In this document: one piece after another, positions 9,488 through 30,523 of the stretch
Numbering within the stretch: the first letter of the stretch is position 1
Layout of the letters: each line of letters starts with the position of its first letter
DNA from: Deltaproteobacteria bacterium
Lineage (GTDB): Bacteria > Myxococcota > Myxococcia > Myxococcales > 40CM-4-68-19
Direction of reading: 5' to 3'
Assembly (NCBI GenBank): GCA_005879535.1
Contig: VBKI01000005.1
Coordinates: forward strand, 1-35,147
Length of the DNA stretch: 35,147 nt
Program-made: the position numbers and the translations under genes
The notes under the pieces: generated by a model
Seen by the model: only the letters and a program-made list of their open reading frames with translations
What the model was told of the DNA's origin: nothing
The model's database searches: none

Positions 9488-10648
9488 ATGAAGGTCACCC
9501 CGGTCTTTTCTTCCCTTCTTGCTGCCGCGGCGCTCGCCGCCTGCGGCAAGACGGGCACCACCGACGATTTCCGCGCCGCGGCGCCGACCTCGGACAAGAT
9601 CGCCATTTCCGAATACGACGGCGACCCGGTCGGCGGCACCGCCGCCGACGATCCGTCTTCGAGCGCACAGCAAGCGGCGAGGCCGGAGTGCCATCCGCAC
9701 CTGTTCGTTCGCACACACGAGATCATCGGCAGGCTCAACCGGCATTTCGACAAGCACCTGCACCATGTCGAGGAGCTGATCGAGAACAATCCGCTCAGCG
9801 ACGGGGAAACCAGGACCTGGGAGAACATCCGGGCCGGCCTGGACCGGAAGTTCACCATGACCCGCACCGCGAACCTCGACGGCTCCGTCACCTATGACTT
9901 CGAGCTCGACGTCGCGAGCGTGCCCGCCAGCGGGTCGCTCTCGTTCGTCAAGGTGATGTGGGGGTCGATCACGCATTCCGGCCCCTCCGTCGAGGCAAGC
10001 GATGCAGGAACGACCGAGGCCGTCGAGAACAAGGGCGTCGTGACGTTCGACTTCACCGCCCTCGCCTCGGTCAAGACGTCCGAGCGCGCCCGCGGGCAGA
10101 TCACCGACACGTTCGACAACGTGCGCGACCCGGCGAAGGGCGTGAAGAGGGTCGCCAGCGTCGTCCTGACCAACTTCGTGCCGGAGGAAGGAGATCCCCA
10201 CGGACCGCGGAGCGGCAGCTACTCGTGGGAGCGCGAGCCCGGCGTGGGCGGCAAGTTCCGCTTCCAGGACACCGTGACGCTATTCTGCCTGCCGAACCCG
10301 ACGGGCGTGCAGTCCGACGTCACCACCATCTCGCGCTGGTACAAGGCGGACGACGGCCAGGTGCACGGACGCAGCGACTCGATGGCGAGGGGCGGCCAGC
10401 TCCCGACCGGCGATACCTGGATGGGCGTGACCTGCGCCAAGGGCCAGACGACAGCCATGCCTGCAGAGGGCTTCTGGATGATGAAGCTCGAGGACAGTAC
10501 CGGCGCGACGCTGAGCTCGCAGATGTCGCAGGTGGGTACCGATCCTTGCGATCCGTTGCTCGGTGCCGTGCCCAGCGCCACCGGCAACAACACCGACTAC
10601 GACTTCCCCACGGATTTCAGCGCGATCACCTTCCCGGGTGAATGGTAG
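9488..10648 (+). CDS. Hypothetical lipoprotein
   Basis: A 386-residue predicted lipoprotein with signal MKVTPVFSSLLAAAALAACGKTG (lipobox LAAC). GGAGG lies about 8 nt before the ATG. I do not recognise the family. A low-complexity segment (about residues 25-65) precedes a His-rich stretch (HFDKHLHHVEELIENN) and a beta-rich C-terminal half with repeated Ser/Thr/Asp-rich strands. Two pairs of Cys (CHPH, FCLP, VTCAKG, DPCDP) could form disulfides in the exported protein. It is monocistronic: a good intrinsic terminator follows 30 nt after the stop. Confidence 0.85.
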   Translation: MKVTPVFSSLLAAAALAACGKTGTTDDFRAAAPTSDKIAISEYDGDPVGGTAADDPSSSAQQAARPECHPHLFVRTHEIIGRLNRHFDKHLHHVEELIENNPLSDGETRTWENIRAGLDRKFTMTRTANLDGSVTYDFELDVASVPASGSLSFVKVMWGSITHSGPSVEASDAGTTEAVENKGVVTFDFTALASVKTSERARGQITDTFDNVRDPAKGVKRVASVVLTNFVPEEGDPHGPRSGSYSWEREPGVGGKFRFQDTVTLFCLPNPTGVQSDVTTISRWYKADDGQVHGRSDSMARGGQLPTGDTWMGVTCAKGQTTAMPAEGFWMMKLEDSTGATLSSQMSQVGTDPCDPLLGAVPSATGNNTDYDFPTDFSAITFPGEW

Positions 10649-10679
10649 TTGTCGCTGCAGCCCCCGACGACACACGGGA

Positions 10680-10707
10680 GGCGTCCGGCTCCGGCCGGGC
10701 GCCTTTT
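10680..10707 (+). terminator. Intrinsic terminator of the lipoprotein gene
   Basis: GGCG-CCGG pairs with CCGG-CGCC (one mismatch) around a short loop, followed directly by TTTT and TGTG. It begins about 32 nt after the lipoprotein stop and ends just before the start of the next gene at 10716. Confidence 0.8.
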
Positions 10708-10715
10708 GTGTTTCC

Positions 10716-11369
10716 ATGGGACGGATGCGGATGTGCCACGTGCCGGCGGGTGAGTTCTGGATGGGGACCGATCCGCCCGAAGGCCAGCAGAACGAACATC
10801 CGCGGCGGCGCGTGACCACGGCGGCATACGCCATCGGAGAGGCGCCGGTCACCAACGCCGAGTTCGCCGCGTTCGTCGACGGCGGCGCCTACCGGGATCC
10901 CTCGCTCTGGAACGAGGCCGGCTGGCGCTGGCGCGAGCAAGACGGAATCGCCGCTCCGCGCTTCTGGAACGACGATGCGTGGCGCGACTACCTCGCGCCA
11001 GACCAGCCGGTGGTCGGCGTGAGTTGGTAGCGCCTTCCTGCGGAAGCGGAATGGGAGCGCGCGGCCCGTGGCGACGACGGCAGGCGCTTCCCCTGGGGCG
11101 ACGACTGGATTCCGGCCAACGCCGCGCACCGCGGCGGCCTCCGCCATACCCTGCCCGTCCGCTCGCTTCCTTCGAACCGCAGCCCGCACGGGCTCTACGA
11201 TTGCGCGGGCAACGTCTGGGAATGGTGCGCGGACGAGTATGCAAAGGGCTTGCGCAGCGCTCGCGGCGGCTCCTGGAACGCGCACCCTCCCCAGCTCCGT
11301 TGCGCCGCGCGCAACGCCTGGCCGCCGGACGCCCGATTTTCCAATCTCGGGTTCCGCGTCGCCCGTTGA
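10716..11369 (+). pseudogene. Formylglycine-generating-enzyme (SUMF1/EgtB-type) domain protein, interrupted by an amber codon
   Basis: The first 104 codons show a typical FGE-sulfatase domain: VPAGEFWMGTD, then APVTNAEFAAFV and QPVVGVSW. TAG follows at 11028-11030. The same frame then continues without any other stop through [44 protein letters not shown] and the usual terminus LGFRVAR to TGA at 11369. Family members carry about 12 residues (consensus like xDAxAYxxWxGK) between VSW and RLPTEAEWE; here they are missing. A deletion joining the TA of a Tyr codon to the G of a Lys codon would give exactly this TAG without shifting the frame. The intact protein would be about 230 residues; its substrate is unknown. 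Confidence 0.8.
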
Positions 11370-11376
11370 GCGGCGC

Positions 11377-12387
11377 CTAGATCGCGGTGATCAGTACCCG
11401 CTGGACGGCGTTGTTGCCGTAGCCGAGCTCGTTCCATTCGGGCTCGTCGGGCTGGGTCCTCCCCTGGAGATCAGTCGCGCGGCAAGCGAGGAGGTACCGG
11501 CCCCGCACTTTCGGCGTCCAGCGAAGCTCGAAGCGGCGCCAGGAGTGCGGCAGCGCGGGGCCCACGAGACGGGCCGGGTGGCGCTGGCCATCGATTTCGA
11601 CGTCGACACCATCGATCCCGTCGCCGCTCCACGCGAGACCCGAAAGGAGGATGCGAGCTCCGGCGCGGACCCGTTCTTCCAGGCCGGTGAACATCGACTT
11701 CACCCGCACCCGGGTCACCGGGTCGCCCGGCGCATAGACGTATTTTTCCGTCTGGAACTCGCCTTCGAACGGGCGTTCTACGGCCTCGATGCGCGCAAGC
11801 CACTTCACGCTGGCCATGCCGTACCAGCCGGGAACGATCAGCCGCAGCGGAGCGCCGAACCGGGCGGGGATCGGCTCGGCGTTCATTTCCCAGGCGAGGA
11901 GCGTGTCCGGGTCCGTCGCCACTTCCCGGGGCAGGGAACGCTGGTACCCACCTCCATCGGCGCCGGTGAACACCACTTCCACGGCGCTCTCCCGCAGCTC
12001 GAGAACGGAGCGCAGCGGGACGCCGGTCCACTGGGCCGTGCTGACGGCCCGATGCGCCCACTGCTCGCCGGACACGGGCGGATCGATCATCGCGCGCCCG
12101 TTTCCGGCGCATTCGGTGACGACGGTTTTCGTCACTGCAGGCATCCGCCGAAGCTGGCGCACGGGCACCATCCGCGGCGTGATCACCGCACCCGCGATTT
12201 CGACGGCGTGCGAGTCGCCGAGCCGCGGAATGGCGAAATGGCAGCGGAGGAAGCGTTCTTCCGCCGGCGTGATCAGCCGTCCGAACGCGGCATCGGGTGC
12301 CTCCGCGTTGACGGGGTCGCGGGAATGGATGCGCCGGCCCTCTGCATCGAGGACGGAAAGTGACTCGATCTCTGCCTGGACCCGCAT
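11377..12387 (-). CDS. Sulfite oxidase-family molybdopterin-dependent oxidoreductase
   Basis: This 336-residue protein has the sulfite oxidase fold: a molybdopterin domain with the Mo-ligating cysteine in VVTECAGNGR (Cys93), TAQWTGVPLRSVLE, and PLRLIVPGWYGMASVKWL, followed by a C-terminal Mo-co dimerisation domain (from about residue 225). There is no Tat or Sec signal, so it is predicted to be cytoplasmic, and no heme domain. CAGN resembles sulfite oxidases more than the methionine-sulfoxide reductase MsrP. It ends 7 nt from the broken FGE-like gene (convergent) and lies 80 nt downstream of the DUF417 gene on the same strand. Substrate not determinable. Confidence 0.88.
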   Translation of the reverse strand: MRVQAEIESLSVLDAEGRRIHSRDPVNAEAPDAAFGRLITPAEERFLRCHFAIPRLGDSHAVEIAGAVITPRMVPVRQLRRMPAVTKTVVTECAGNGRAMIDPPVSGEQWAHRAVSTAQWTGVPLRSVLELRESAVEVVFTGADGGGYQRSLPREVATDPDTLLAWEMNAEPIPARFGAPLRLIVPGWYGMASVKWLARIEAVERPFEGEFQTEKYVYAPGDPVTRVRVKSMFTGLEERVRAGARILLSGLAWSGDGIDGVDVEIDGQRHPARLVGPALPHSWRRFELRWTPKVRGRYLLACRATDLQGRTQPDEPEWNELGYGNNAVQRVLITAI

Positions 12388-12467
12388 TCGCCGCCGCGAC
12401 GGGAAGGTAGGTCCTCGGTGCCTCTATGTCAGGGGGCCGGCGCTTGCCCGGCTGCCACTCGGCGCCG

Positions 12468-12959
12468 TTACCGCGCGGCTTCCCGCCTGACGGCGCGGAG
12501 CGATTCGGCGGCGAGCGCGATGGCAGCACCCAGGAGAACGACGTCCTTGAGCAGGAAGCCGTGCGCCGGGTGCATGGGCGAAAGGGCGCCGGGTGTCGAG
12601 AAGAGGAACGAGACCGTGCTGACGAAGGTGGCGACCGCGAGCGCGCCGCCGATGACCGACGCACGGGCGGAGATCGGGCGGACGGCGAGGAGCGCGGCCG
12701 TGACCAGCTCGGAAGTTCCGATGATCCGGGAGACGCCTTCGTCGGTGAAGAACGCGTAGAGCCAGCTCATGAGCGGGCTGTTGGCGACGAGCGGCTTGAT
12801 TGCGGCGGCCTCGGCGGCGGTGAATTTGAGGGCGCCGAAGAGAACGAAGATGAGGACGAGCGCGTAGCGCAACACGCTGATCCCGATGGATTCGAGGGTG
12901 GCGCCGCGGTCGGCGGTGGTGGGCGAAAAAGCGGCTCGAAGCTCGACACTGGTGCTCAT
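12468..12959 (-). CDS. DUF417 inner-membrane protein (YkgB/RclC family)
   Basis: A 163-residue membrane protein with four predicted helices. The block RYALVLIFVLFGALKFTAAE followed by AIKPLVANSPLMSWLYAFF is the DUF417 signature, shared with E. coli YkgB (RclC), part of the reactive-chlorine resistance locus rclABC. The ATG is preceded by AGGAGGA at 6 nt. It diverges from a pyridine nucleotide-disulfide oxidoreductase resembling RclA, with a perfect palindrome between them. Function of the family is not established beyond its association with oxidative (HOCl) stress. Confidence 0.88.
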   Translation of the reverse strand: MSTSVELRAAFSPTTADRGATLESIGISVLRYALVLIFVLFGALKFTAAEAAAIKPLVANSPLMSWLYAFFTDEGVSRIIGTSELVTAALLAVRPISARASVIGGALAVATFVSTVSFLFSTPGALSPMHPAHGFLLKDVVLLGAAIALAAESLRAVRREAAR

Positions 12960-13023
12960 GACGATCCTCCTGGGATTGGAAGGGAAGGCAGTTCGTGCTC
13001 TTGAGGTCGCGGAAGGTCAGGAA

Positions 13024-13043
13024 ACGTTACGCGGGCGTAACGT
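13024..13043. promoter_or_regulatory. Perfect 20-bp palindrome, candidate operator
   Basis: ACGTTACGC, a GG spacer, then GCGTAACGT: nine-base arms matching perfectly. It lies in the 139-nt divergent intergenic region, 65 nt upstream of the DUF417 ATG and 56 nt upstream of the oxidoreductase ATG, the expected place for a repressor or activator dimer acting on both genes. The cognate regulator is not encoded nearby. Confidence 0.6.
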
Positions 13044-13098
13044 CAGGGTGCGTTTCCGGACTTGATCGGCGATATCGACGCAGCGTGAGGAGGCTTCC

Positions 13099-14469
13099 AT
13101 GGATGCGGACGCGATCGTCATCGGCGCGGGGCAAGCGGCCGTACCGCTCGCGGTAAGGCTCGCCAAATCCGGACGGCGGACGCTGCTGGTCGAGCGATCG
13201 CGCCTCGGCGGTACCTGCGTGAACTACGGCTGCACGCCCACGAAGACCATGGTGGCGAGCGCGCGCGCCGCGCACGTGGCGCGCACCTCGGGGCGCCTGG
13301 GCGTCGAGTGCGGAGTGCCGCGCGTGGACTTCAAGGCGATCGTCGCGCGGAAGGATGCCGTCGTGCGGCAGTGGCGCGAAGGGATTCAATCCCGGCTCGA
13401 AGGCGCTCGCGATCACCTCAGGGTCGTGCACGGACATGCCCGATTCACCGGGGAGCGCGAGATCGAGGCGGCGGGAGAGCGCCACCGGGCGGAGATCTTC
13501 GTCATCGACGTCGGCGTCCGGCCGGCAACGCCGGAAATCGAGGGGCTTGCCGCCCTCCCCTGGCTCGACAACCGGCGCGTGATGGAGCTGGAGGCGCTGC
13601 CCGAGCACCTCGTCGTCATCGGCGGCGGATACATCGGATGCGAGTTCGCGCAGATGTTCCGGCGTTTCGGAGCGGCGGTGACGGTGGTGCAGCGAGGGTC
13701 GCATCTGCTCGACCGCGAGGACCCCGACGTCTCGGAGGCGCTGGAAGGGGTCTTCAGCGCCGAAGGAATCGACGTCGTTGTCGGCGCTGGCGTGCGCCGC
13801 GCCGCGGCGGGCGCTTCCGGCGTCGCGATCACACTGCAGGACGGCCGCCGGATCGACGGCTCGCACGTCCTGGTGGCGGTGGGTCGCCGGCCCAACACCG
13901 ACGATCTCGGGTGCGAGCGCGCCGGGATTGGTCTCGATGGGCGCGGCTTCATCAAGGTCGACGACCGTTACAGGACCAGCGCGGAGGGCATCTATGCCGT
14001 GGGGGACGTCACGGGCGGTCCGCAATTCACGCACACCGCATGGGACGACCACCGCATCCTCTTCGACGTGCTCACCGGTCGATCGGCGCGCAGCCGGTCG
14101 GGGCGCGTCATCCCGTATGTCGTCTTCACCGACCCCCAGGTCGCCGGAGTCGGTCTCAACGAGCGCGAGGCCCGCGCACGCGGCGTTCGATTCGACGTGG
14201 CGAAGATGCCGTTCGGGCAGGTGGCGCGTGCCATCGAGATCGACGAGACCGCCGGTCTTCTCAAGCTTCTCGTCGACCCGCAGACGGAGCGGATCGTCGG
14301 CGCGAACATCGTCGGCGCGGAGGCCGGCGAGCTGATCCACGTGTTCGCCGCGCTCATGCAGGCGGGAGCTACCGCTCGCGCGGTGGTGGACGTGGAGATG
14401 GCCCACCCCACCTTCGCCGAAGGCGTACAGAGCGTTGCGATGCAGCTGCCGCGGTACGCCCTGGGCTGA
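13099..14469 (+). CDS. Pyridine nucleotide-disulfide oxidoreductase, RclA/mercuric reductase-like
   Basis: A 456-residue class I flavoprotein disulfide reductase. It has an N-terminal FAD-binding AIVIGAGQAAVPLA, redox-active cysteines in GGTCVNYGCTPTK (Cys40/Cys45), the NAD(P)H-binding VVIGGGYIGCEFAQMF (about residue 172), the second FAD motif GIYAVGDVTGG (about 297) and a dimerisation domain with AHPTFAEG near the C-terminus. It lacks the C-terminal Cys pair of mercuric reductase MerA, so mercury reduction is unlikely. The divergent DUF417 gene makes RclA, the HOCl-inducible Cu(II) reductase, the closest functional analogue. GAGGAGG precedes the ATG. Substrate remains an inference. Confidence 0.9.
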   Translation: MDADAIVIGAGQAAVPLAVRLAKSGRRTLLVERSRLGGTCVNYGCTPTKTMVASARAAHVARTSGRLGVECGVPRVDFKAIVARKDAVVRQWREGIQSRLEGARDHLRVVHGHARFTGEREIEAAGERHRAEIFVIDVGVRPATPEIEGLAALPWLDNRRVMELEALPEHLVVIGGGYIGCEFAQMFRRFGAAVTVVQRGSHLLDREDPDVSEALEGVFSAEGIDVVVGAGVRRAAAGASGVAITLQDGRRIDGSHVLVAVGRRPNTDDLGCERAGIGLDGRGFIKVDDRYRTSAEGIYAVGDVTGGPQFTHTAWDDHRILFDVLTGRSARSRSGRVIPYVVFTDPQVAGVGLNEREARARGVRFDVAKMPFGQVARAIEIDETAGLLKLLVDPQTERIVGANIVGAEAGELIHVFAALMQAGATARAVVDVEMAHPTFAEGVQSVAMQLPRYALG

Positions 14470-16287: not shown

Positions 16288-16926
16288 TTACGCGCGATCG
16301 TTGCGGTACACGTCGTACGCCGCGGAGTACTCCATGACCCGCGCGACCTCCGAGATGAACTTTTCGTCGTGCCCGGCGCGCCGCAGCAGGTGGAAGCCCA
16401 TCTCCATGCCGGACGTGATTCCTCCGGCGGTGATGATGCGGCCCTGGTCGACGACCCGCGCGCGGGAAATCCTGCACTTCGGCGCGATCTGGGCGAGACG
16501 GTCGATCGGCGTCATCCCTGGAGGTGTCTGCTCCACGCGATCCGGTTCCTTGCGATTCGTCGCCAGCAGCCCGTCGAGCAGGCCCATCTTTCCGTAGACC
16601 CATGAGCCGGTGCAGACGCTGGTCAGCAGCGTCGACTGCGGCAGAGCCCGGACGTACTCGTGGAGGCGTCCATTGTGCAGCTCCTGGCGCGTGCCGTAGC
16701 CGCCCGGGATGAGGAAAGCATCCATCGTTGGCTCGTCGCTGAAGCAGTAGTTCGGATGCACGGTGAAACCGGCCTGCGCCTGCACCGGGCGCATTGCGTC
16801 AGCGATCAGGAATGCTTCCAGCTCCGGATTGAATCGCCGCGCCACCGAGAAGACGCCATGCGGAGCGGCGAAATCGACGATTTCCACATCCTTGAATACG
16901 TAGATCCCGAGACGGAACGGCGGCAT
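16288..16926 (-). CDS. DJ-1/PfpI family protein, isonitrile hydratase-like
   Basis: This 212-residue protein has the DJ-1/PfpI fold. Its nucleophilic elbow is LLTSVCTGSWVYGKMGLLDG with Cys105; AFLIPGGYGTR and the early VEIVDFAAPHGVF (acidic residue near 18) are also conserved. The length and CTGS context match isonitrile hydratases and the amidase-like domains of GlxA-type regulators, but no AraC DNA-binding domain follows. ATG at 16926 is preceded by CGGAGG. The exact substrate cannot be read from the sequence; isonitrile hydratase is a family guess. Confidence 0.85.
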   Translation of the reverse strand: MPPFRLGIYVFKDVEIVDFAAPHGVFSVARRFNPELEAFLIADAMRPVQAQAGFTVHPNYCFSDEPTMDAFLIPGGYGTRQELHNGRLHEYVRALPQSTLLTSVCTGSWVYGKMGLLDGLLATNRKEPDRVEQTPPGMTPIDRLAQIAPKCRISRARVVDQGRIITAGGITSGMEMGFHLLRRAGHDEKFISEVARVMEYSAAYDVYRNDRA

Positions 16927-18214: not shown

Positions 18215-20050
18215 TCAGGCCTGTTCGACCGCGCGACTCCCTGCCGCGTGGAGTTGCTGGAGCAGCTCCCGATGCTCGGCGGCGAACGCGGCGCCGCGGG
18301 CGCGCATGGCGGTCGCCAGCGCGGCGGGCAGGTCGAGCGCGGCTCCCTTCGCTGCCGCACCCCGATAGGCTGCGGCGAAATCGGGCGGCACCCGCAGCGA
18401 CCAGTTCTCGGGGCTCACGGTCCCAGGGCGGTTGTAGACCTCCCGCAAGCCGAGCAAGTCGGTGAAGAAGACCATCACGTTGCGCGCGGGGCCGACGAAG
18501 AGGTCGGCGAGCTGTGCGCGCGCGAGCGCCTGCGGAGATGCCGCCATCTGCGCGATCCACCGCGGCCGCGTGCCGACATCGGGCACCAGGCGTGAGGCGA
18601 GATAGGCCGCGCGCTGTTCCGACATGCCCGATACCGCCCACCGCTCCGCGACACGCCAGATGGACTCGGTATCGTGCGTCCCGACCATGATCCAGTCCTG
18701 CGGTCGCGCGTTTTCCGCGCGGTAGACGTCGCGGGGATCGCTCAATACGGACTTCTGCGTGACACGGAAGCGGCCGAGCCCGTGCCGCTCCAGTACGCGC
18801 CGCACCGGATACGGCTGCGTGCTCAGCACCTCCGCGATGATCTCGTCGGTGCCGCGGCCGCGCGCCGCCGCCATGTCGACCAGCGCGTCGAACAGCATGG
18901 CGTACTGCTCGACTTGTGCCGGCGAGAGCACGCGAACCCTGCCGTCGGCGTACGGTAGCTCGGAAGCGTCGATCTGCTCCTGCCGCGCGATTGCCCATTG
19001 CGCCAGGTCCACCCTCTCCGGCGAGGAAAAAAGGCGCGCCCCGCCCTTCACCGCCACCAGAGGATCGGCGGCGTCCGCGGCGTACACCCAGGGATCGATC
19101 CATCCGTGCGGATGATCGACACGCAGGCCGTCGAACTCGTCGAGGACCTTGCCGACCCTTCCTGCGACGAACGCGATCGCGGGGCCCGCGGCTGATCGCG
19201 TTCCGTACAGCCGAGGATCGAGAACACCATAGCCCCAGGGCTGACCCTCGGGCGTGGTCCGGCTCGGTGGCGCGCCCATGCGCAGCGTGTCCAGGAGCAG
19301 AGCGCGATGGCTCCAAAGATCCCGATGCGAGATCCCGATCTGCAGGTCGCCGAACAGAAGAAGCCCGAGCTGATGAGCTTCGGTCCGGAACGCTTCGTGC
19401 TGCTCATGAGCAAGCAGCTGGCCGAAGCGGTAGAAGGCGATTTCGTTCGCCCCCTGCGCCCGCAACTCCTGGCCGTGCGCCCCCGCGAATTCCCGGGAGA
19501 ACAGCGATCGATCAGGCTCGGGCCACCGGCGCCAATCCGGTTCGCCGTGCAGCGCCTCGAGCACCGCGTAGAGCTCGGCACGCTCCAGCCAGGCGCGGTT
19601 GCGTTCCGTGAATCGACGCACACGCTCCTGTACGGCCCGATCGCCGCGCGCCCGCAGCCATGCCGCCGCGAGCAGCCTCCGTGCCGACTCGTGCGCATCC
19701 GCGTGCGCCGCCCGCGAGAGCGCGTCCGCCGGCCGCAGCCCGACGACGGCGCCGAGCTCCTCCTCCGTGAGCAACCCCTGTTCCACCAGCGGCGTCACAG
19801 CGATGGAGAGCGTGTTCCGGCTGAAGAGCGTCGCGTCGTACGGCGAGGGATCGTGCGGCGCCGTCTCTCCCTGCGGCCCGAGCTGGAGGCCGTGGAATCC
19901 GAGCTCGGCGGCGAAACGGAGAAAAGCGCGGCCCCCGCGCGAGAGCGGCGCCCCACGGCCGATGTCGTCGCGCGGATCGCCTGGGAACGCGAGGTCGTGA
20001 ACCGAAAGCAGCAGCCGGCGGACCCCGAGCGCCCGCAGCGCCTCGCGCAC
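18215..20050 (-). CDS. malQ: 4-alpha-glucanotransferase (GH77 amylomaltase)
   Basis: A roughly 611-residue GH77 enzyme that disproportionates alpha-1,4-glucans. The catalytic Asp lies in FDGLRVDHPHGWIDPW (the family RxDH motif), the acid/base Glu in TDEIIAEVLST and the third acidic residue in MVGTHDTES. GLLLFGDLQIGISHRDLW is another conserved block. GTG at 20050 is used; CTG at 20071, overlapping the glgB stop (CTGA), is an alternative and is closer to GGAGAAGG. It is the last gene of the glgE-mak-glgB-malQ operon and would trim or rearrange the maltooligosaccharides handled by its neighbours. Confidence 0.9.
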   Translation of the reverse strand: MREALRALGVRRLLLSVHDLAFPGDPRDDIGRGAPLSRGGRAFLRFAAELGFHGLQLGPQGETAPHDPSPYDATLFSRNTLSIAVTPLVEQGLLTEEELGAVVGLRPADALSRAAHADAHESARRLLAAAWLRARGDRAVQERVRRFTERNRAWLERAELYAVLEALHGEPDWRRWPEPDRSLFSREFAGAHGQELRAQGANEIAFYRFGQLLAHEQHEAFRTEAHQLGLLLFGDLQIGISHRDLWSHRALLLDTLRMGAPPSRTTPEGQPWGYGVLDPRLYGTRSAAGPAIAFVAGRVGKVLDEFDGLRVDHPHGWIDPWVYAADAADPLVAVKGGARLFSSPERVDLAQWAIARQEQIDASELPYADGRVRVLSPAQVEQYAMLFDALVDMAAARGRGTDEIIAEVLSTQPYPVRRVLERHGLGRFRVTQKSVLSDPRDVYRAENARPQDWIMVGTHDTESIWRVAERWAVSGMSEQRAAYLASRLVPDVGTRPRWIAQMAASPQALARAQLADLFVGPARNVMVFFTDLLGLREVYNRPGTVSPENWSLRVPPDFAAAYRGAAAKGAALDLPAALATAMRARGAAFAAEHRELLQQLHAAGSRAVEQA

Positions 20051-20067
20051 GAGCTCGCGCAGCGCGT

Positions 20068-22281
20068 TCAGCCCTTCTCCGCGACGGGGACGAGCCACAC
20101 GGTGCCGAGCGGGGGCAACGTGAGGAGCGCCGACTGCGGCTGGGCGTCCCAAGGCACTTCCTCGACTGCAATGCGCTCGGGATTGCCCACGCCGGAGCCT
20201 CCATAGGCGGGCGCGTCGGAGTTGACGAGCTCGCGGTAACCGCCGGTCTGCGGCATCGCCAGACGATACTCGTGCCGCGGCACCGGGGACAGGTTGGCGA
20301 CGCAGACCATGTGCCGGGAGCGGTCTTCCGACCAGCGCACGAACGCGAACACGTTGGCGTCCACCGCGTTGGCCTGCAGCCACTGAAACCCGCGGCCGTC
20401 ACCGTCGAGCTCGTACAGCGCCGGCTCGTCGCCCAGCGCCCGGTTGAGATCGCGGATCAGCGCCGACACTCCCGCGTGCATTCCCGACTCGAGCAGGTGC
20501 CAGTCGAGGCTGGCGTCGTGGTTCCACTCCGCGCGCTGCGCGAACTCGCCGCCCATGAAGAGCAGCTTCTTGCCCGGGTGCGCCCACATCCACCCGTAGA
20601 GCGCGCGCAGGTTGGCGAACTTCTGCCATTCGTCGCCGGACATCCTCCCCAGGAGCGACCCCTTCCCGTGCACGACTTCGTCGTGCGACAGCGGAAGGAA
20701 GAAGTTCTCGCTGAAGATGTACATGAGCCCGAAGGTCAGGTTGTTGTGGTGCCACTTCCGATGCACCGGATCCGTGGCGAAATAGTGGAGGGTGTCGTGC
20801 ATCCAGCCGAGGCTCCATTTGTAATGGAACGAGAGCCCACCCTCCTGTGCCCGGTGGGTCACCTTGGGAAAAGCAGTGGACTCCTCGGCGATCATCACCG
20901 CTCCGGGATGCAGGTCGCGGACGCGCTCGTTCACTTCCTTGAGAAATGCGATCGCCTCCTCGTTCTCGCGGCCGCCCGAACGGTTCGGAATCCACTCCCC
21001 TTCCCGGCGCGAGTAGTCGCGGTAGAGCATGCTCGCCACCGCGTCCACGCGCAGGCCGTCGACGTGGTACTGGTCCAGCCAGAACAGCGCGCTGGCGAGG
21101 AGGAAGTTCCGCACTTCATTGCGGCCGTAGTTGAAGACCAGCGTCCCCCAGTCGGGATGAGCGCCTAGCCGCGGATCCTCATGCTCGTAGAGCGCGGTGC
21201 CGTCGAACCGCGCGAGTGCGTGCGCGTCGGTCGGGAAATGCGCGGGCACCCAGTCGAGGATCACTCCGATGCCACGCTGGTGCAGCTCGTCGACGAACGC
21301 CTTGAACTCGTCGGGATGACCATGCCGTGCGGTGGGGGCGAAGTATCCGGTGACCTGGTATCCCCACGATCCTCCGAACGGGTGCTCGGCGACGGGAAGC
21401 AACTCGACATGTGTGAATCCCATCTCGCCGACGTAATCGGCGAGATGACGTGCCGCCTCCTTCCAGGTGAACGGACGGTTGCCTTCCTCGATCACGCGGC
21501 GCCACGAGCTGAGGTGCACCTCGTACACGGTCATCGGCCGGCGGATTGGATCCTGCGTCCCCCGGCGCTCCATCCACTGCTCGTCGCCCCACAGATAACG
21601 GTCGAGCTGGTGGATGACGGAAGCCGTCGCCGGCGGCACTTCGGTGCGGAAGGCGTACGGATCGGCTTTCAGCAAGTGCGCCCGGCCGTCGCCGGGGCGG
21701 ATCTCGTACTTGTAGCGCGCACCCCCTCCGACGTCCGGAACGAACAGCTCCCAGACCCCCGTCGAGCCGATGCGGCGCATCTGGTGGAGCCGCCCGTCCC
21801 AGGAGTTGAAGTCGCCGACCACAGATACCGAGCGCGCCGTCGGTGCCCAGACCGCGAACGACGTCCCGAACACTCCCTGGGAATGGCGGGGATGCGCCCC
21901 CAGGCGCTCCCAGATGCGCTCGTGGCGGCCTTCCGCGACCAGGTAAGAATCGAGCTCGCCGAAAGTGGGGAGGAAGCTGTATGGATCGCGCAGGGTGAAG
22001 CTCGCGCCGCCGCGATACTCGATCTTCAACAGGTAGCCGAAGACGTCCTTGCGGCCGTTCAGGCGGGCTTCGAACACGCCGCCTTTCCGATGGCGCGCCG
22101 GCACTTCGCCACCGAAGTCGGGCAGGATGGTGACGCGCTCCGCGTCCGGACGAAACGCCCGGATGACGACCCCGTCGCCGTCGGGATGGATCCCGAGCAC
22201 CGCATGCGGATCCGGATGCCGCAGCTCCACCAGGCGCTCGATTTCCAGGTCCACTTTCGCCAGGTCCGTCGGTCGTCTCAC
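20068..22281 (-). CDS. glgB: 1,4-alpha-glucan branching enzyme
   Basis: A 737-residue GH13 branching enzyme that makes alpha-1,6 branches in glycogen-like glucan. An N-terminal CBM48-containing region (HPDPHAVLGIHPDG; AVWAPTARSVSVVGDFNSWD near residue 130) precedes the catalytic barrel: the nucleophile Asp in GLRVDAVASMLYRDYSR, the acid/base Glu in VMIAEESTAFP and the third Asp in LPLSHDEVVHGKGSL. A C-terminal beta domain follows. GTG at 22281 is chosen because AGGAGGAA lies 5 nt upstream and its GTGA overlaps the stop of the maltokinase gene, a coupled start. Confidence 0.97.
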   Translation of the reverse strand: MRRPTDLAKVDLEIERLVELRHPDPHAVLGIHPDGDGVVIRAFRPDAERVTILPDFGGEVPARHRKGGVFEARLNGRKDVFGYLLKIEYRGGASFTLRDPYSFLPTFGELDSYLVAEGRHERIWERLGAHPRHSQGVFGTSFAVWAPTARSVSVVGDFNSWDGRLHQMRRIGSTGVWELFVPDVGGGARYKYEIRPGDGRAHLLKADPYAFRTEVPPATASVIHQLDRYLWGDEQWMERRGTQDPIRRPMTVYEVHLSSWRRVIEEGNRPFTWKEAARHLADYVGEMGFTHVELLPVAEHPFGGSWGYQVTGYFAPTARHGHPDEFKAFVDELHQRGIGVILDWVPAHFPTDAHALARFDGTALYEHEDPRLGAHPDWGTLVFNYGRNEVRNFLLASALFWLDQYHVDGLRVDAVASMLYRDYSRREGEWIPNRSGGRENEEAIAFLKEVNERVRDLHPGAVMIAEESTAFPKVTHRAQEGGLSFHYKWSLGWMHDTLHYFATDPVHRKWHHNNLTFGLMYIFSENFFLPLSHDEVVHGKGSLLGRMSGDEWQKFANLRALYGWMWAHPGKKLLFMGGEFAQRAEWNHDASLDWHLLESGMHAGVSALIRDLNRALGDEPALYELDGDGRGFQWLQANAVDANVFAFVRWSEDRSRHMVCVANLSPVPRHEYRLAMPQTGGYRELVNSDAPAYGGSGVGNPERIAVEEVPWDAQPQSALLTLPPLGTVWLVPVAEKG

Positions 22282-23576
22282 GCTTCCTCCTGCTGCAGGT
22301 CGCGCGCAGGAATCCCGACCCAATCGGGCCGGTGGCCGACCTCATACCGCAACTCGTAGAGCAGCTTCTCCAGCTCGAGCGAGGCGAGGAGGACCTTCGC
22401 CGTCCTCTCGTCATCCGGGAGCAGATGTTGCGCCCGCGACCGGTACCCCGCAAGGAATGCCTCGCGCGCAGGTCCCCGGCGATCGCCAGGAGACGCTCCG
22501 CGCTTTTCCGCCGCCGCCGCCGCATAGGCGAAAGAGCGGAGCATCCCGGCGACGTCCTTGTACGGGCAGTGCTTCTCGCGCCGTTCCGGCAGCGTCCGCG
22601 CCGGCTCGCCCTCGAAATCGAAGATCAGCCATTGCCCGCCGGAGCGCAGCACTTGCCCGAGGTGGAGATCGCCGTGCTGCCGCAGCCGCAGTCCGGCGGG
22701 GTGCGCGGTGGCGAGCCGCTCGATCCGCGCCCGCAGCGCATCCTTTCGAGACTGCAGATCCGGCACGATCGATCCGGCGACCCGCACGGTCCGATCGAGC
22801 TCCGACAGGAGTCCGAGGGTCCAGCGCTCCAGGTCCTGGCGACGAATGGGTTCCGGCGCGAACGCCGCCTCGTCCGGCGCCGCGAGCGCGCTGTGCAGCT
22901 CGCCGACGCGTGCGCCGAGCTCGCGGATCTCCCCGAGCAACGCCACCGGCGGGACGGCCTCCTTCGTGAACGCATCGACGACGTACGACCAGCCATCGGT
23001 CTCGACGCGGACGAAGCGGTGCGCGACAGCCACCGTGGCCTCCACGATGCCTTCGAGCGAGAGCGCGCCCAGCAGCGCCGGCGTGGAGCGAAAGCCCCGC
23101 CGCGCCAGCAGCGCACCGATCTCCAGCTCCGGGCTCTTTCCTTGATCGAGCTTGCGGATCAACTTGAGGATGACGGCATCGCCGAATACGAGCGAAGTGT
23201 TGCTCTGCTCCGCCGAGAGCCTGCGCACAGTGGGCCGCTCGGGCAACGAAGACAGGGGCGAGTCTGGTCCGTCGAACCGCTCCCCACGGAGCGCGCCACC
23301 GCGCGTCCGAATCGCACGGCGTCCGCGGAGGATCGCGAGAATGGCGAGGCAGGCCTGCTCATCGAGCGCCTCCTCGAGCGGAGCATCGTCCGGTTTCAGG
23401 GGCAGCAGGTACCGTTCCGCGGGACGCTCGCCGTCATAGCGCACCTCGATGGTCACGACGTGCAGGCCGTCGAGGCCGGCCTCGTCGACGACGCGCACCG
23501 CGGCGATCGGCGTGCCCTTGCCGCCGAACCAGCGTTGTCGCCGCAGCCAGTCCGGCAAGGCATCGAGATCCAGCAT
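22278..23576 (-). CDS. mak: Maltokinase (Mak/Pep2)
   Basis: A 432-residue kinase of the aminoglycoside-phosphotransferase-like fold that makes maltose 1-phosphate, the GlgE substrate, from maltose and ATP. LPDWLRRQRWFGGKG is the typical N-terminus; RLRQHGDLHLGQVL (catalytic loop, near residue 310) and WLIFDFEGEPARTLPERR (metal-binding DFE) are the kinase motifs, followed by PYKDVAGMLRSFAYAA. It is a stand-alone enzyme, not fused to trehalose synthase; no treS is in the window. It begins 8 nt after the glgE stop, and its own stop overlaps glgB. Confidence 0.93.
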   Translation of the reverse strand: MLDLDALPDWLRRQRWFGGKGTPIAAVRVVDEAGLDGLHVVTIEVRYDGERPAERYLLPLKPDDAPLEEALDEQACLAILAILRGRRAIRTRGGALRGERFDGPDSPLSSLPERPTVRRLSAEQSNTSLVFGDAVILKLIRKLDQGKSPELEIGALLARRGFRSTPALLGALSLEGIVEATVAVAHRFVRVETDGWSYVVDAFTKEAVPPVALLGEIRELGARVGELHSALAAPDEAAFAPEPIRRQDLERWTLGLLSELDRTVRVAGSIVPDLQSRKDALRARIERLATAHPAGLRLRQHGDLHLGQVLRSGGQWLIFDFEGEPARTLPERREKHCPYKDVAGMLRSFAYAAAAAEKRGASPGDRRGPAREAFLAGYRSRAQHLLPDDERTAKVLLASLELEKLLYELRYEVGHRPDWVGIPARDLQQEEA

Positions 23577-23584
23577 CCCTGCTC

Positions 23585-25518
23585 CTAGAAGTAGTAATCG
23601 AAGCCCTGTTCCGAGCGGCGGAAGCGCAGGACGGACCAAAGCGCAGCAGGCTTCTCCGGCGTCAGCTGCACGACCGCGCTGGCGCCCTGCCACAGCGCCC
23701 GCTCGCCGGAGAGGACGTCATGCACCTGGTACGTCTCGTCCTCCGGGATGCCCAGGCGGTCGAGGGGAAGCTCGAGGATTGCCTCCTGCGCCGCGTACGG
23801 ATCCAGGCTCACCGCGACGAGCACCAGGCTGGATCGGTCGGGCGTTGCCTTCGAGTAGAAGAGCACGCGCTCGTTGTTGGCGCGGTGGAACTGGAGATTG
23901 CGATACGACTGGAGCGCGGGAATCTCGCGCCGCGCGCGGTTGAGCGCCGAGATCCACGCCTTGATGTTGCCCGGGCGTTCGAGGTCCCAGTTGACGATCT
24001 GGTACTTCTCCGAATCGGCGTACTCCTCCTTCCCTGGAAGGGCGCGGTTCTCGCAGAGCTCGTATCCGCTGTAGATGCCCCAGCTCGAGCTGAGCGTCGC
24101 GGCCAGCGCCGCGCGCAGCATGAATGCAGGGCGCCCGCCCTGCTGCAAGTGCTCGGGAAGGATGTCCGGCGTGTTCGGCCAGAGATTGCCGATCATATAG
24201 TCCGCCGGGCGGCCCTGGGTCAGCTCCGTCAGGTACTCCTCCAGCTCGTGCTTGAAGTTGCGCCAGGTGAAGTACGTGTACGACTGGTTGAAGCCGGCCT
24301 TGGCGAGCGCCTTCATCACCTTGGGCCGGGTGAACGCCTCCGCGAGAAAGATCACCTCGGGGTGGCGCGCATGGACCTCCCCGATCACCCATTCCCAGAA
24401 GGGCAGCGGCTTCGTGTGCGGATTGTCGACGCGGAAGATCCGCACGCCCTGGGCAATCCAGTGCATGAACACGGAGCGCAATTCGGCCCAGAGGGCTTCA
24501 CGCGCCGGACTCATCCAGTCGAAGTTGACGATTGGAACCACTCCGGGTGCTCGCGGATGTAGGGATGGTCGGGCGAGCACTGGAAAGCGATGTCGAGAGC
24601 CACCTCCAGTCCAAGATCCTTCGCGGAGGCGACGAAGCGGCGGAAGTCCTCGAGCGTGCCGAGCTGCGGATGGATCGCCTTGTGTCCGCCTTCGGGACCG
24701 CCGATGGCCCACGGGCTGCCGACGTCGTCGGACGCCGCGGTCAGCGCGTTGTTCTTTCCCTTGCGCGCGGTCCGGCCGATGGGGTGGATCGGTGGCAGGT
24801 AGACGACGTCGAACCCGAGCTCGCCGGCGTATGACAACCATCGCTCCGCGTCGCGAAACGTTCCGTGGCGCTTCGGATCTCCGGACGTCGAGCGGGGGAA
24901 AAATTCGTACCAGGAGCTGAACACGGCGCGCTTGCGCTCTGCGAAGATGCGCAGCTCCCGGTCGAGCCGGGTGGCGACTACCCGATCCGCGTGCCGCGAC
25001 GCGGCCGCGACCAGACCGGGATCGAAGGCGGCCGAAAGCGTCGCCGGCGACTGGCCCGCGAGCAATGCTTTCTGTCCGTGGCGAAGTCTCTCCGCATCGG
25101 CGCGGACGCCGGCAGCTTCGGCGCGGGTTGCGGCGCCGTCGAGGAGGGCGGAGCCCTCGAGCAGCTCGGAGGAAACGTCGCGGCCGACGTCCACCTTGCG
25201 CTTCAGCTCGTGGACCCAGGTGCGAAACGAGTCCGGCCAGGCCTCGATGCTGAACGCGTACAGGCCGTGCCCCGTGAGCGGCAGGTCTGCCTCCCAGACG
25301 TCGTTGCCGACAAACCGCATGGGCTCCTCGCGGGCTTCCGTCGCCTGCGGAGTGAGCTGGCGCCAGCGGACCACGGCGGCGAGGTCCTCGTGGCCCTCCT
25401 TGAAGATGTCGGCCGTGATGCGCACCGGTTCGCCCGCGACGCGCTTCACCGGAAACCGGCCGCCGTCGAGCTGCGGCTGGACGTTCTCGATGATGGTGCT
25501 GCCCCTGCGCTCGGGCAT
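23585..25518 (-). pseudogene. glgE: Alpha-1,4-glucan:maltose-1-phosphate maltosyltransferase, frameshifted by internal deletion
   Basis: Frame one (25518 to about 24535, 328 codons) carries the N-terminal beta domain and first half of the GH13_3 barrel (GFDVVYLPPIHPIGRTARKG; QCSPDHPYIREHPEWF) and then hits a stop at 24511. A second frame from about 24533 to 23585 has the rest: the nucleophile in FRVDNPHTKPLPFWEW, the acid/base in FLAEAFTRPKVM, NTPDILPEHL, and the C-terminal domain. Intact GlgE has about 20 residues (consensus like RPDGTIKYAENPPKKYxD) at the join; they are missing, with a change of frame. Together the parts give about 643 of an expected roughly 663 residues. AGGAGGAA precedes the ATG. 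Intact GlgE extends alpha-glucan with maltosyl units. Unless this is an assembly error, the product is nonfunctional. Confidence 0.82.
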
Positions 25519-25660
25519 TGCTTCCTCCTGCTCCCGTGGGCTCGCCAGGGGCGTCGAACTCCGGGCCCGGGCAGGAGCACCGGTGATCGGTCATCTCCCG
25601 GTCCCCAGCGCCACTGATGGGCATTCCGTCTGTCGGAAACAAGGCGTGGTCGCGCGGCCC

Positions 25661-29878: not shown

Positions 29879-30523
29879 ATGACGTGCATGGGTTCCCTGC
29901 GTATGCCCGCTCCGTCAGAAGCGCTTCCCGGACGCGACGAGCCGGTGCGCGTCCCGCCTCAGCACGTCGTGCTCGGTGCTCCGCTGTTGCCGCCGTTTCC
30001 CGACGGTTCCGAGCGGGCCATCTTCGCCATGGGCTGCTTCTGGGGCGCCGAACGCAAGTTCTGGAACGTCGAGGGCGTGTACACGACCGCCGCCGGCTAC
30101 GCGGGCGGATTCACCAAGAACCCCACCTACCGCGAGGTGTGCTCCGGCCAGACCGGCCACGCCGAGGTGGTGCTCGTCGTCTACGATCCGAAGCGCGTGA
30201 CTTACGCGGATCTGCTGCGCGTCTTCTGGGAGAACCACGATCCCACGCAGGGGATGCGGCAGGGCAACGACGTCGGCACCCAGTACCGCTCCGCCATCTA
30301 CACGACCAGCGAGGCGCAGAAGAAGGCCGCCGAAGCATCGCGCGAGCAATATCAGCAGGCGCTGGCGCAGGCGCGGCACGGGCAGATCGCGACCGAGATC
30401 GCCGCCGAGCCTCCGTTCTATTACGCCGAGGACTACCACCAGCAGTATCTGGCGAAGAATCCCGGCGGGTATTGCGGCCTCGGTGGCACCGGCGTGTCCT
30501 GCCCCGCAGGCCTCAGTCGCTAG
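29879..30523 (+). CDS. msrA: Peptide methionine (S)-S-oxide reductase
   Basis: A 214-residue MsrA very like the E. coli enzyme, including its N-terminal extension ([21 protein letters not shown]). The catalytic cysteine lies in [14 protein letters not shown] (Cys53). The C-terminal [14 protein letters not shown] holds the two recycling cysteines (Cys199, Cys208). It reduces S-methionine sulfoxide in proteins using thioredoxin. The start ATG lies 60 nt after the aldolase stop; its last 11 nt overlap the end of the convergent methyltransferase gene. Confidence 0.97.

Follow-up and report, generated by a model that had tools for sequence, protein, structure and literature searches.

The stretch of DNA analysed here (the window, 35,147 nucleotides (nt) in length) is contig C5 of a myxococcotal genome of 5.16 Mb in 118 contigs, from a soil lineage close to Anaeromyxobacter, and it contains a disulfide reductase gene and a gene for a DUF417 membrane protein that diverge from a common intergenic region holding a palindrome, with a gene for a molybdenum (Mo) enzyme behind the DUF417 gene. 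An earlier note on this DNA had seen in this arrangement an oxidant-response module with a palindromic operator, and the three genes were confirmed at the coordinates and on the strands that it gave, the reductase and DUF417 genes diverging across a gap of 139 nt. Below, G labels denote genomes (G000 is that of the window), L labels fetched loci and C labels contigs of G000, while sigA and sigB are labels coined in the present analysis for two types of extracytoplasmic function (ECF) sigma factor. The features of the locus, with protein lengths in amino acids (aa), are as follows.

11377–12387, minus strand: sulfite-oxidase-fold molybdopterin oxidoreductase, 336 aa (Oxidored_molyb PF00174, 161.8 bits; Mo-co_dimer PF03404, 25.8 bits)
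12468–12959, minus strand: DUF417 membrane protein, 163 aa (PF04224, 95.3 bits, gathering cut-off 27)
13005–13031, minus strand: predicted ECF-type promoter toward the DUF417 gene (-35 CGTAACG, -10-like GACC; box start 72 nt before the ATG)
13024–13043, no strand: palindrome ACGTTACGC-GG-GCGTAACGT, two putative -35 elements back to back with 4 nt separating the CGTAAC hexamers
13036–13062, plus strand: predicted ECF-type promoter toward the reductase gene (-35 CGTAACG, -10-like GACT; box start 63 nt before the ATG)
13099–14469, plus strand: class I pyridine nucleotide-disulfide oxidoreductase, 456 aa (Pfam Pyr_redox_2 and dimerisation domain)

What had been described as a perfect 20-bp palindrome is really a 9-bp inverted repeat around an unpaired GG, with 18 of its 20 positions symmetric. 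Of 3000 simulated stretches of 139 nt, 35 contained a repeat with 9-bp arms and a spacer of 0–8, and the 35-kb window has four such repeats; the palindrome is unusual, but this chance rate is insufficient on its own. With up to three mismatches the palindrome is found once in the window (0.01 expected by shuffles), and the genome-wide search that the earlier note had called for recovered a single perfect copy of GTTACGCNNGCGTAAC, that of the window, with matches at up to two mismatches at 7 places compared to 21 for the reversed control. Hence there is no regulon of the palindrome as such, and a genome-wide regulon of this kind was rejected as a candidate. There are two same-genus loci in which the reductase diverges from the same partner genes, those of G005 (reductase 77%, DUF417 79% and Mo enzyme 74% identical to the window) and G006 (reductase 76%, Mo enzyme 73%, DUF417 a C-terminal remnant). 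Both retain GAAACGTTACG, the DUF417-facing arm, while the other, reductase-facing arm and approximately 45 nt beyond it are gone. The palindrome is thus absent upstream of the orthologous pairs, an observation that the earlier note had itself named as speaking against its proposal. G005 is the only same-genus locus with an intact pair, and as it has kept the DUF417-facing box without the other arm, the half-sites evidently stand alone. The conserved feature is a half-site that has a direction and, at a fixed distance, a second element, which argues for a promoter and not for the palindromic operator first suggested. At the G006 locus (L066; G006:C346, approximately 1185–1464) the DUF417 remnant is joined to its own leader, the locus still has the promoter box, the reductase and the Mo enzyme, and the genome has no close sigB.

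We propose with good confidence that the palindrome consists of two back-to-back -35 elements of divergent ECF-sigma promoters, rather than of an operator for a symmetric regulator. Each arm in the window reads CGTAACG-N15-(G)GAC and points at its own gene, and the boxes, their direction, their spacing and their recurrence can be read directly from the DNA. In the three Anaeromyxobacter-type genomes compared, G033, G035 (A. soli) and G043 (A. terrae), linkage of the reductase and DUF417 genes recurs, at a distance of 5–6 kb; all three reductase orthologues (63–66% identity) have the reductase-facing box as one CGTAACG on their own strand 71–74 nt before the start, and the DUF417 genes have CGTAACG 59–61 nt before the matched start. 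A same-strand YGTAAC is found 59–84 nt before DUF417 in 8 of the 12 Myxococcota loci where DUF417 is of the short type, and a box lies upstream of the reductase in 4 of 10 orthologues, compared to an expected 1.2% of 100-nt stretches with a same-strand YGTAAC. A second element of the form CAC[TC], GAC[TC] or ACAC follows at a fixed distance in 18 of 24 Myxococcota boxes (15% at random positions). Gene calls based on the GC content of third codon positions are partly wrong in the fetched loci and all counts therefore use homology matches.

The Anaeromyxobacter-type neighbourhood also contains two ECF sigma genes, genes for a zinc-finger and a membrane anti-sigma factor, MsrB, MsrA, a Tat-type (twin-arginine translocation) Mo enzyme and cytochrome b561. 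The earlier suggestion of an oxidant-response module gains from the fact that in all three genomes MsrA, MsrB, the Mo enzyme and the cytochrome are flanked by the genes for the reductase and DUF417, as would be expected of an oxidant-repair module. It had also been suggested that the regulator be sought by co-occurrence. The likely candidate is sigB, a protein type represented by that of A. soli (sigma70-ECF superfamily model, 78.1 bits, cut-off 42.9). Among 16 genomes, picked partly for having DUF417 or the reductase, sigB (E below 1e-46) is present in all nine with DUF417 and in none of the seven without. The sigB genes lie near DUF417 or the reductase in G008, G033, G035, G043, G057 and G060. 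The sigma genes of G000 that concern us are the following.

C81:46185–46793: sigB, C81 copy (61% identity)
C38:13795–14421: sigB-2 (55% identity)
C75:14381–14908: sigA, an ECF sigma factor with a membrane anti-sigma

A small anti-sigma gene usually adjoins sigB, and its product has HxxxCxxC in 36 of 36 homologous stretches and matches zf-HC2. It is assigned to the small, soluble zinc anti-sigma (ZAS) type, for which release upon thiol oxidation is proposed by analogy. In L067, L068, L069, L072, L076, L141, L142, L144, L145 and L190, the gene for a conserved protein that matches no Pfam family (IAYKFL...GPFTGFRWP) follows or adjoins those for sigB and the anti-sigma.

The association of the box with sigB extends well beyond the Myxococcota. 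When public genomes were scanned with an alignment of DUF417, at least 386 relatives were found, the best 80 of which were retained as loci. These were scored for sigB (at least 110 bits inside a fetched flank of up to 8 kb) and for the box (YGTAACG in the 160 nt preceding the DUF417 match). The box is present at 25 of the 27 loci with sigB nearby and at 2 of the 53 without (Fisher p 3e-16, to be read with the kinship of the loci in mind), and one of these two is the G005 locus, the sigB of which is on another contig. Promoters have a direction and operators need not, and the rarity of a reverse-facing box in the same upstream stretch (2 of 80) therefore favors promoters. Within the mycobacteria only, the box is found at 19 of 19 loci with sigB and 1 of 11 without, or 15 of 15 and 1 of 11 when identical upstreams are removed. 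The mycobacterial, Rhodococcus and Polyangiaceae boxes read TGTAACG (once CGTAACG) and all 18 have a second element of the CAC[TC], GACT or ACAC type, compared to 15% of random positions. By gene order, the sigB, anti-sigma and DUF417 genes are linked in both Myxococcota and mycobacteria. In L165 and L167 (cyanobacteria) and L232 (Pyrinomonadaceae), DUF417 adjoins the same GMC oxidoreductase (54–76%) without sigB or box, and L165 also encodes the same large glucosidase-like protein (57%).

A promoter scan of G000 with YGTAACGN{15,17}SACY gave 16 places (48 for the reversed control), and a stricter pattern gave 6 (14 for the control). The 16 places include the window pair and sigB-2, and the latter coincides with one of the near-matches to the palindrome: GTTACACGCGTGTAAC (C38:13731–13746) is placed 50 nt ahead of sigB-2, with a divergent gene for a GMC oxidoreductase on its other side and the same 4-nt gap between hexamers as in the window. 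The probability of such a site being beside a sigB gene by chance is about 2 in 10,000, a rough figure that assumes six other places, two sigB genes, 100 nt each and 5.16 Mb. A further match, also on C38, precedes a VOC/glyoxalase gene by 34 nt; the 61% orthologue of that gene in G008 sits in a sigB/DUF417/glucosidase cluster and has its own TGTAACG...GGACT 41 nt upstream. Another is 68 nt before the gene for a small exported-looking protein, the C-terminal part of which (85% over 54 residues) is encoded beside sigB and DUF417 in G057. Two further genes recovered by the scan thus have homologues in sigB/DUF417 clusters, a prediction that held at the level of gene neighbourhoods. A third back-to-back CGTAACG pair of G000 is at C52:47347–47403, with a 2-nt hexamer gap and with genes there that are not clearly called.

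Several points weigh against this interpretation. The promoter patterns are not enriched over their reversed controls and the motif by itself therefore defines no regulon; most of the 16 scan matches may be noise. The reductase orthologues of G005, G006, G007, G008, G016 and G036 have no box, the DUF417 gene of G010 has none despite the presence of sigB in that genome, and sigB occurs without a box in L205 (Nitrospiraceae) and L234 (Paenarthrobacter). The second element is missing at 6 of the 24 Myxococcota boxes, its pattern was fixed after the sequences had been viewed, and the -10 elements of the window (GACT and GACC) are 1 nt closer than the mycobacterial CACT. Similarly, the 110-bit threshold for sigB was fixed after the scores were known (they have a gap from 82 to 124), and the 80 loci are not independent, as 19 of the 27 with sigB are mycobacterial and some upstreams are identical. 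Both sigB genes of G000 are unlinked to the window, and the C81 copy is without a box of its own. Finally, the three palindromes of G000 (window, C38 and C52) could reflect selection for symmetry.

In the mechanism that we envisage, one promoter arm would serve the reductase, and the other would serve DUF417 and probably also the Mo enzyme behind it. The Mo enzyme gene begins 80 nt downstream of DUF417 with no terminator-like site between them and, on this arrangement, probably shares the DUF417 transcript; no sigma70-type promoters or terminator were found within 12300–13200. Both boxes would be read by a sigB-type sigma factor, itself held off by the small soluble zinc-binding anti-sigma with HxxxCxxC, and upon its release from the anti-sigma RNA polymerase would transcribe both arms. 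Scattered co-targets would include one sigB gene, the GMC oxidoreductase, the VOC/glyoxalase protein and the small exported-looking protein. The anti-sigma would sense thiol oxidation, as RsrA and other redox-sensing zinc anti-sigmas do, and by analogy with RclA, RclC and RcrB, the products would protect against reactive chlorine or related oxidants. Given the MsrA/MsrB neighbours in the Anaeromyxobacter-type genomes, such an oxidant-defence role is our best guess, though one as apt to fail as to hold. That the regulation differs from that of E. coli by RclR, as had been supposed from the symmetric site, agrees with the present analysis, with ECF-type promoters predicted in place of an AraC-type activator.

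Of the other explanations considered, the one that survives best, although it is unlikely, is that the promoters are read by a factor of the sigA type, which has a membrane anti-sigma and is related to the hypochlorite-responsive ECF16/SigF group. Both promoter classes have YGTAAC and N16–17 spacing, and sigA sits between the reductase and DUF417 genes in the Anaeromyxobacter-type genomes. The boxes also share the -35 core, but not the second element, of the ECF16 consensus (T/C)GTAAC-N17-CGAA, as described for Brucella (PMC8315932). In Caulobacter, SigF is described as acting through GTAACC-N16-CGAA to control a DoxX protein and a Mo enzyme of the YedY type (PMC3511200). The two classes differ, however, in both elements, as the boxes of the reductase and DUF417 genes combine CGTAACG with GAC, CAC or ACAC, whereas the sigA genes have CGTAACC followed after 16–17 nt by CGTA, and the msrB genes likewise with [A/C]GTAACC; the cytochrome b561 genes have CGTAACG with CGTA. 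Moreover, sigA, unlike sigB, occurs (at 49–52% identity) in same-genus genomes without DUF417, and the NrsF family model (PF06532) has no match in G000, where a 38% relative of the Anaeromyxobacter membrane anti-sigma adjoins sigA. In L067 (8131–12298), L068 and L069, GTAACC-N16/17-CGTA precedes sigA and msrBA and CGTAACG...CGTA precedes the cytochrome b561/Mo genes, a second promoter class that by its motif is an ECF16-like set with an unusual -10.

We find it improbable, if only a little more so, that the repeat genuinely serves as an operator, bound by a dimeric repressor or activator that is encoded elsewhere (e.g., of the TetR type, like RcrR) and covers both start regions. Its 9 + 9 symmetry is seen in only about 1% of such gaps, two near-identical palindromes occur on C38 and C52, and a DUF417 gene under a TetR-family repressor does exist, as described in PMC9600549. 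Yet the second arm is absent from both same-genus relatives, the half-sites found elsewhere are single and direction-specific, with reverse-facing ones in 2 of 80, the half-site tracks the presence of sigB, and no regulator gene was recognised among the immediate neighbours scanned.

Comparably improbable is a sulfite/sulfur-oxidation unit in which the Mo enzyme is the main activity and the reductase and DUF417 are helpers. The enzyme has the sulfite-oxidase fold and a catalytic-type Cys93 in TECAGNGR, common to the G005 and G006 orthologues, and it is conserved at 73–74% identity in these genomes even beside the DUF417 remnant; no Tat-like signal was seen by eye at its N-terminus. ECF sigma factors are also described as controlling sulfite dehydrogenases in Sinorhizobium and Starkeya, but the promoters reported there read GGAAT...CGTC (PMC6527743), and these ECF26 sulfite sigma factors were rejected as a model as that promoter does not fit. 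The Mo enzyme scores below the cut-offs for all of the sulfite dehydrogenases SorA (187 of 600), SoxC (171 of 420) and SorT (164 of 570), and the fetched sigB/DUF417 loci outside the genus match it only at approximately 30% (a Tat-type Mo enzyme). For the sulfur oxidation previously suggested as a partner activity, the fold is the one support. Lastly, a repeat arisen by chance between reductase and DUF417 genes that are neighbours through history only, which the rate of about 1% per gap of such length and the lack of genome-wide enrichment of the motif would allow, is very improbable, given that the placement of box to gene recurs across genera and phyla and that the two genes are linked again in the three Anaeromyxobacter-type genomes.

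With ECF-type promoters preferred on these grounds, the products can be placed relative to known proteins. The reductase has the active site CVNYGC (GGTCVNYGC, of the CXXXXC type), which is a trait of the whole class and is not specific to RclA, and HPTFAE near its C-terminus. It is 35% identical to E. coli RclA and scores 332 bits with the RclA equivalog NF040477 (740 required) and 375 with the MerA model TIGR02053 (cut-off 454), and the C-terminal cysteine pair of MerA is not present in its chain, which ends PRYALG. By sequence the closest solved structure is mercuric reductase 5x1y, and next is 6kgy, listed under a generic name, which we take to be E. coli RclA. In a tree of 25 rows, 10 window-type reductases form their own clade (100/100) and RclA a separate one (100/100); an unresolved fork joins these two with a Rhizobium/Mycolicibacterium clade and a Deinococcus protein, and a 99/98 set holds both the RclA and window clades, with MerA, Lpd, Gor and SthA outside. 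The tree therefore supports the earlier label of RclA-like in a broad sense, within the common set, but not in the strict one, and by sequence the reductase belongs to a sister clade of RclA and is not RclA itself. The DUF417 protein, which has no cysteine and three hydrophobic stretches, is 30% identical to E. coli RclC and scores 75.3 bits with the RclC equivalog NF040476 (275 required), and by these measures is a distant relative of RclC.

The locus resembles E. coli rclABC-rclR in that a class I flavin disulfide reductase adjoins a DUF417 inner-membrane protein. It differs in that its genes are divergent, whereas rclABC is one operon, in having no adjoining rclB or rclR, and in having a Mo enzyme behind DUF417, predicted ECF-type promoters and a reductase of a separate clade. 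RclA is described as reducing Cu(II) (PMC7527725) and hypothiocyanous acid (HOSCN), and loss of RclB or RclC as sensitising E. coli to HOSCN (PMC12096828). In rcrARB of uropathogenic E. coli, the DUF417 protein RcrB is induced by way of an oxidant-sensing regulator, of the TetR type, and protects from hypochlorous acid (HOCl) (PMC9600549); unlike the window with its proposed sigma/anti-sigma pair, rcrARB has a repressor with its own operator and no reductase. The ECF16/SigF-NrsF modules (Caulobacter sigF, Brucella bcrS-bcrXQP) share the (T/C)GTAAC -35 and the 16–17 nt spacer, are described as having a single sigma factor control both a DoxX-type protein and a Mo enzyme of the YedY type, and in Brucella are induced by HOCl. 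They differ in the -10 (CGAA compared to GAC/CAC here), in the base after GTAAC (C compared to G), in their six-helix membrane anti-sigma, where a small soluble zinc protein is predicted here, and in sigma clade. Neither the -10 CGAA nor an NrsF-family anti-sigma, the hallmarks of that regulon, was found at the window or in G000, respectively. Azospira sigF-nrsF-mrpX is another ECF16/SigF-NrsF module. SigR-RsrA of Streptomyces pairs an ECF sigma factor with a small cytosolic zinc anti-sigma with HxxxCxxC, and SigR has a promoter, GGAAT...GTT, and a target set that differ from those of sigB.

The window also contains the following features.

10563–11369, plus strand: FGE-sulfatase-like gene broken by an in-frame TAG at 11028–11030 after which the same frame resumes, a pseudogene or an assembly error
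16288–16926, minus strand: DJ-1/PfpI protein, 212 aa, with its best equivalog matches to the N-terminal parts of the AraC-type GbdR and FtrA and no helix-turn-helix match reported
18215–25642, minus strand: run of open reading frames resembling glucan/maltose-phosphate metabolism (branching enzyme and relatives), by eye only
29879–30523, plus strand: msrA

The msrA gene that had been counted with the module is indeed present elsewhere in the window, but no GTAAC box was found on its own strand within 260 nt upstream, and thus it gives no sign of a promoter class in common with the reductase and DUF417.

We found no link between DUF417 and a sigma factor in the open-licence PMC literature, mostly searched short of full texts; PMC10364804 and PMC13118837, considered as DUF417 papers, were dropped, as they contain DUF4174 and DUF4177. 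Where divergent genes are separated by a clean palindrome, the symmetry can come from two overlapping ECF promoters, and a search for operators would misread it. DUF417 proteins are described as protecting E. coli from HOCl and HOSCN by a mode of action that is undefined (PMC12096828; PMC9600549), and a conserved sigma factor, anti-sigma and promoter tied to DUF417 outside of the enterobacteria would provide a defined regulon with a testable input signal, for which Anaeromyxobacter and environmental mycobacteria are tractable hosts. We tentatively suggest, as something short of an even prospect, that a cross-phylum ECF sigma/zinc anti-sigma pair reading YGTAACG-N16/17-(C/G)AC(T/C) may represent a third type of control for RclC-family proteins, after RclR (AraC) and RcrR (TetR), and that, as a switch in the cytosol responding to thiol oxidation, it may tie DUF417 to disulfide reductases, Mo enzymes, GMC oxidoreductases and VOC proteins in one regulon for defense against hypohalous acids or electrophiles.

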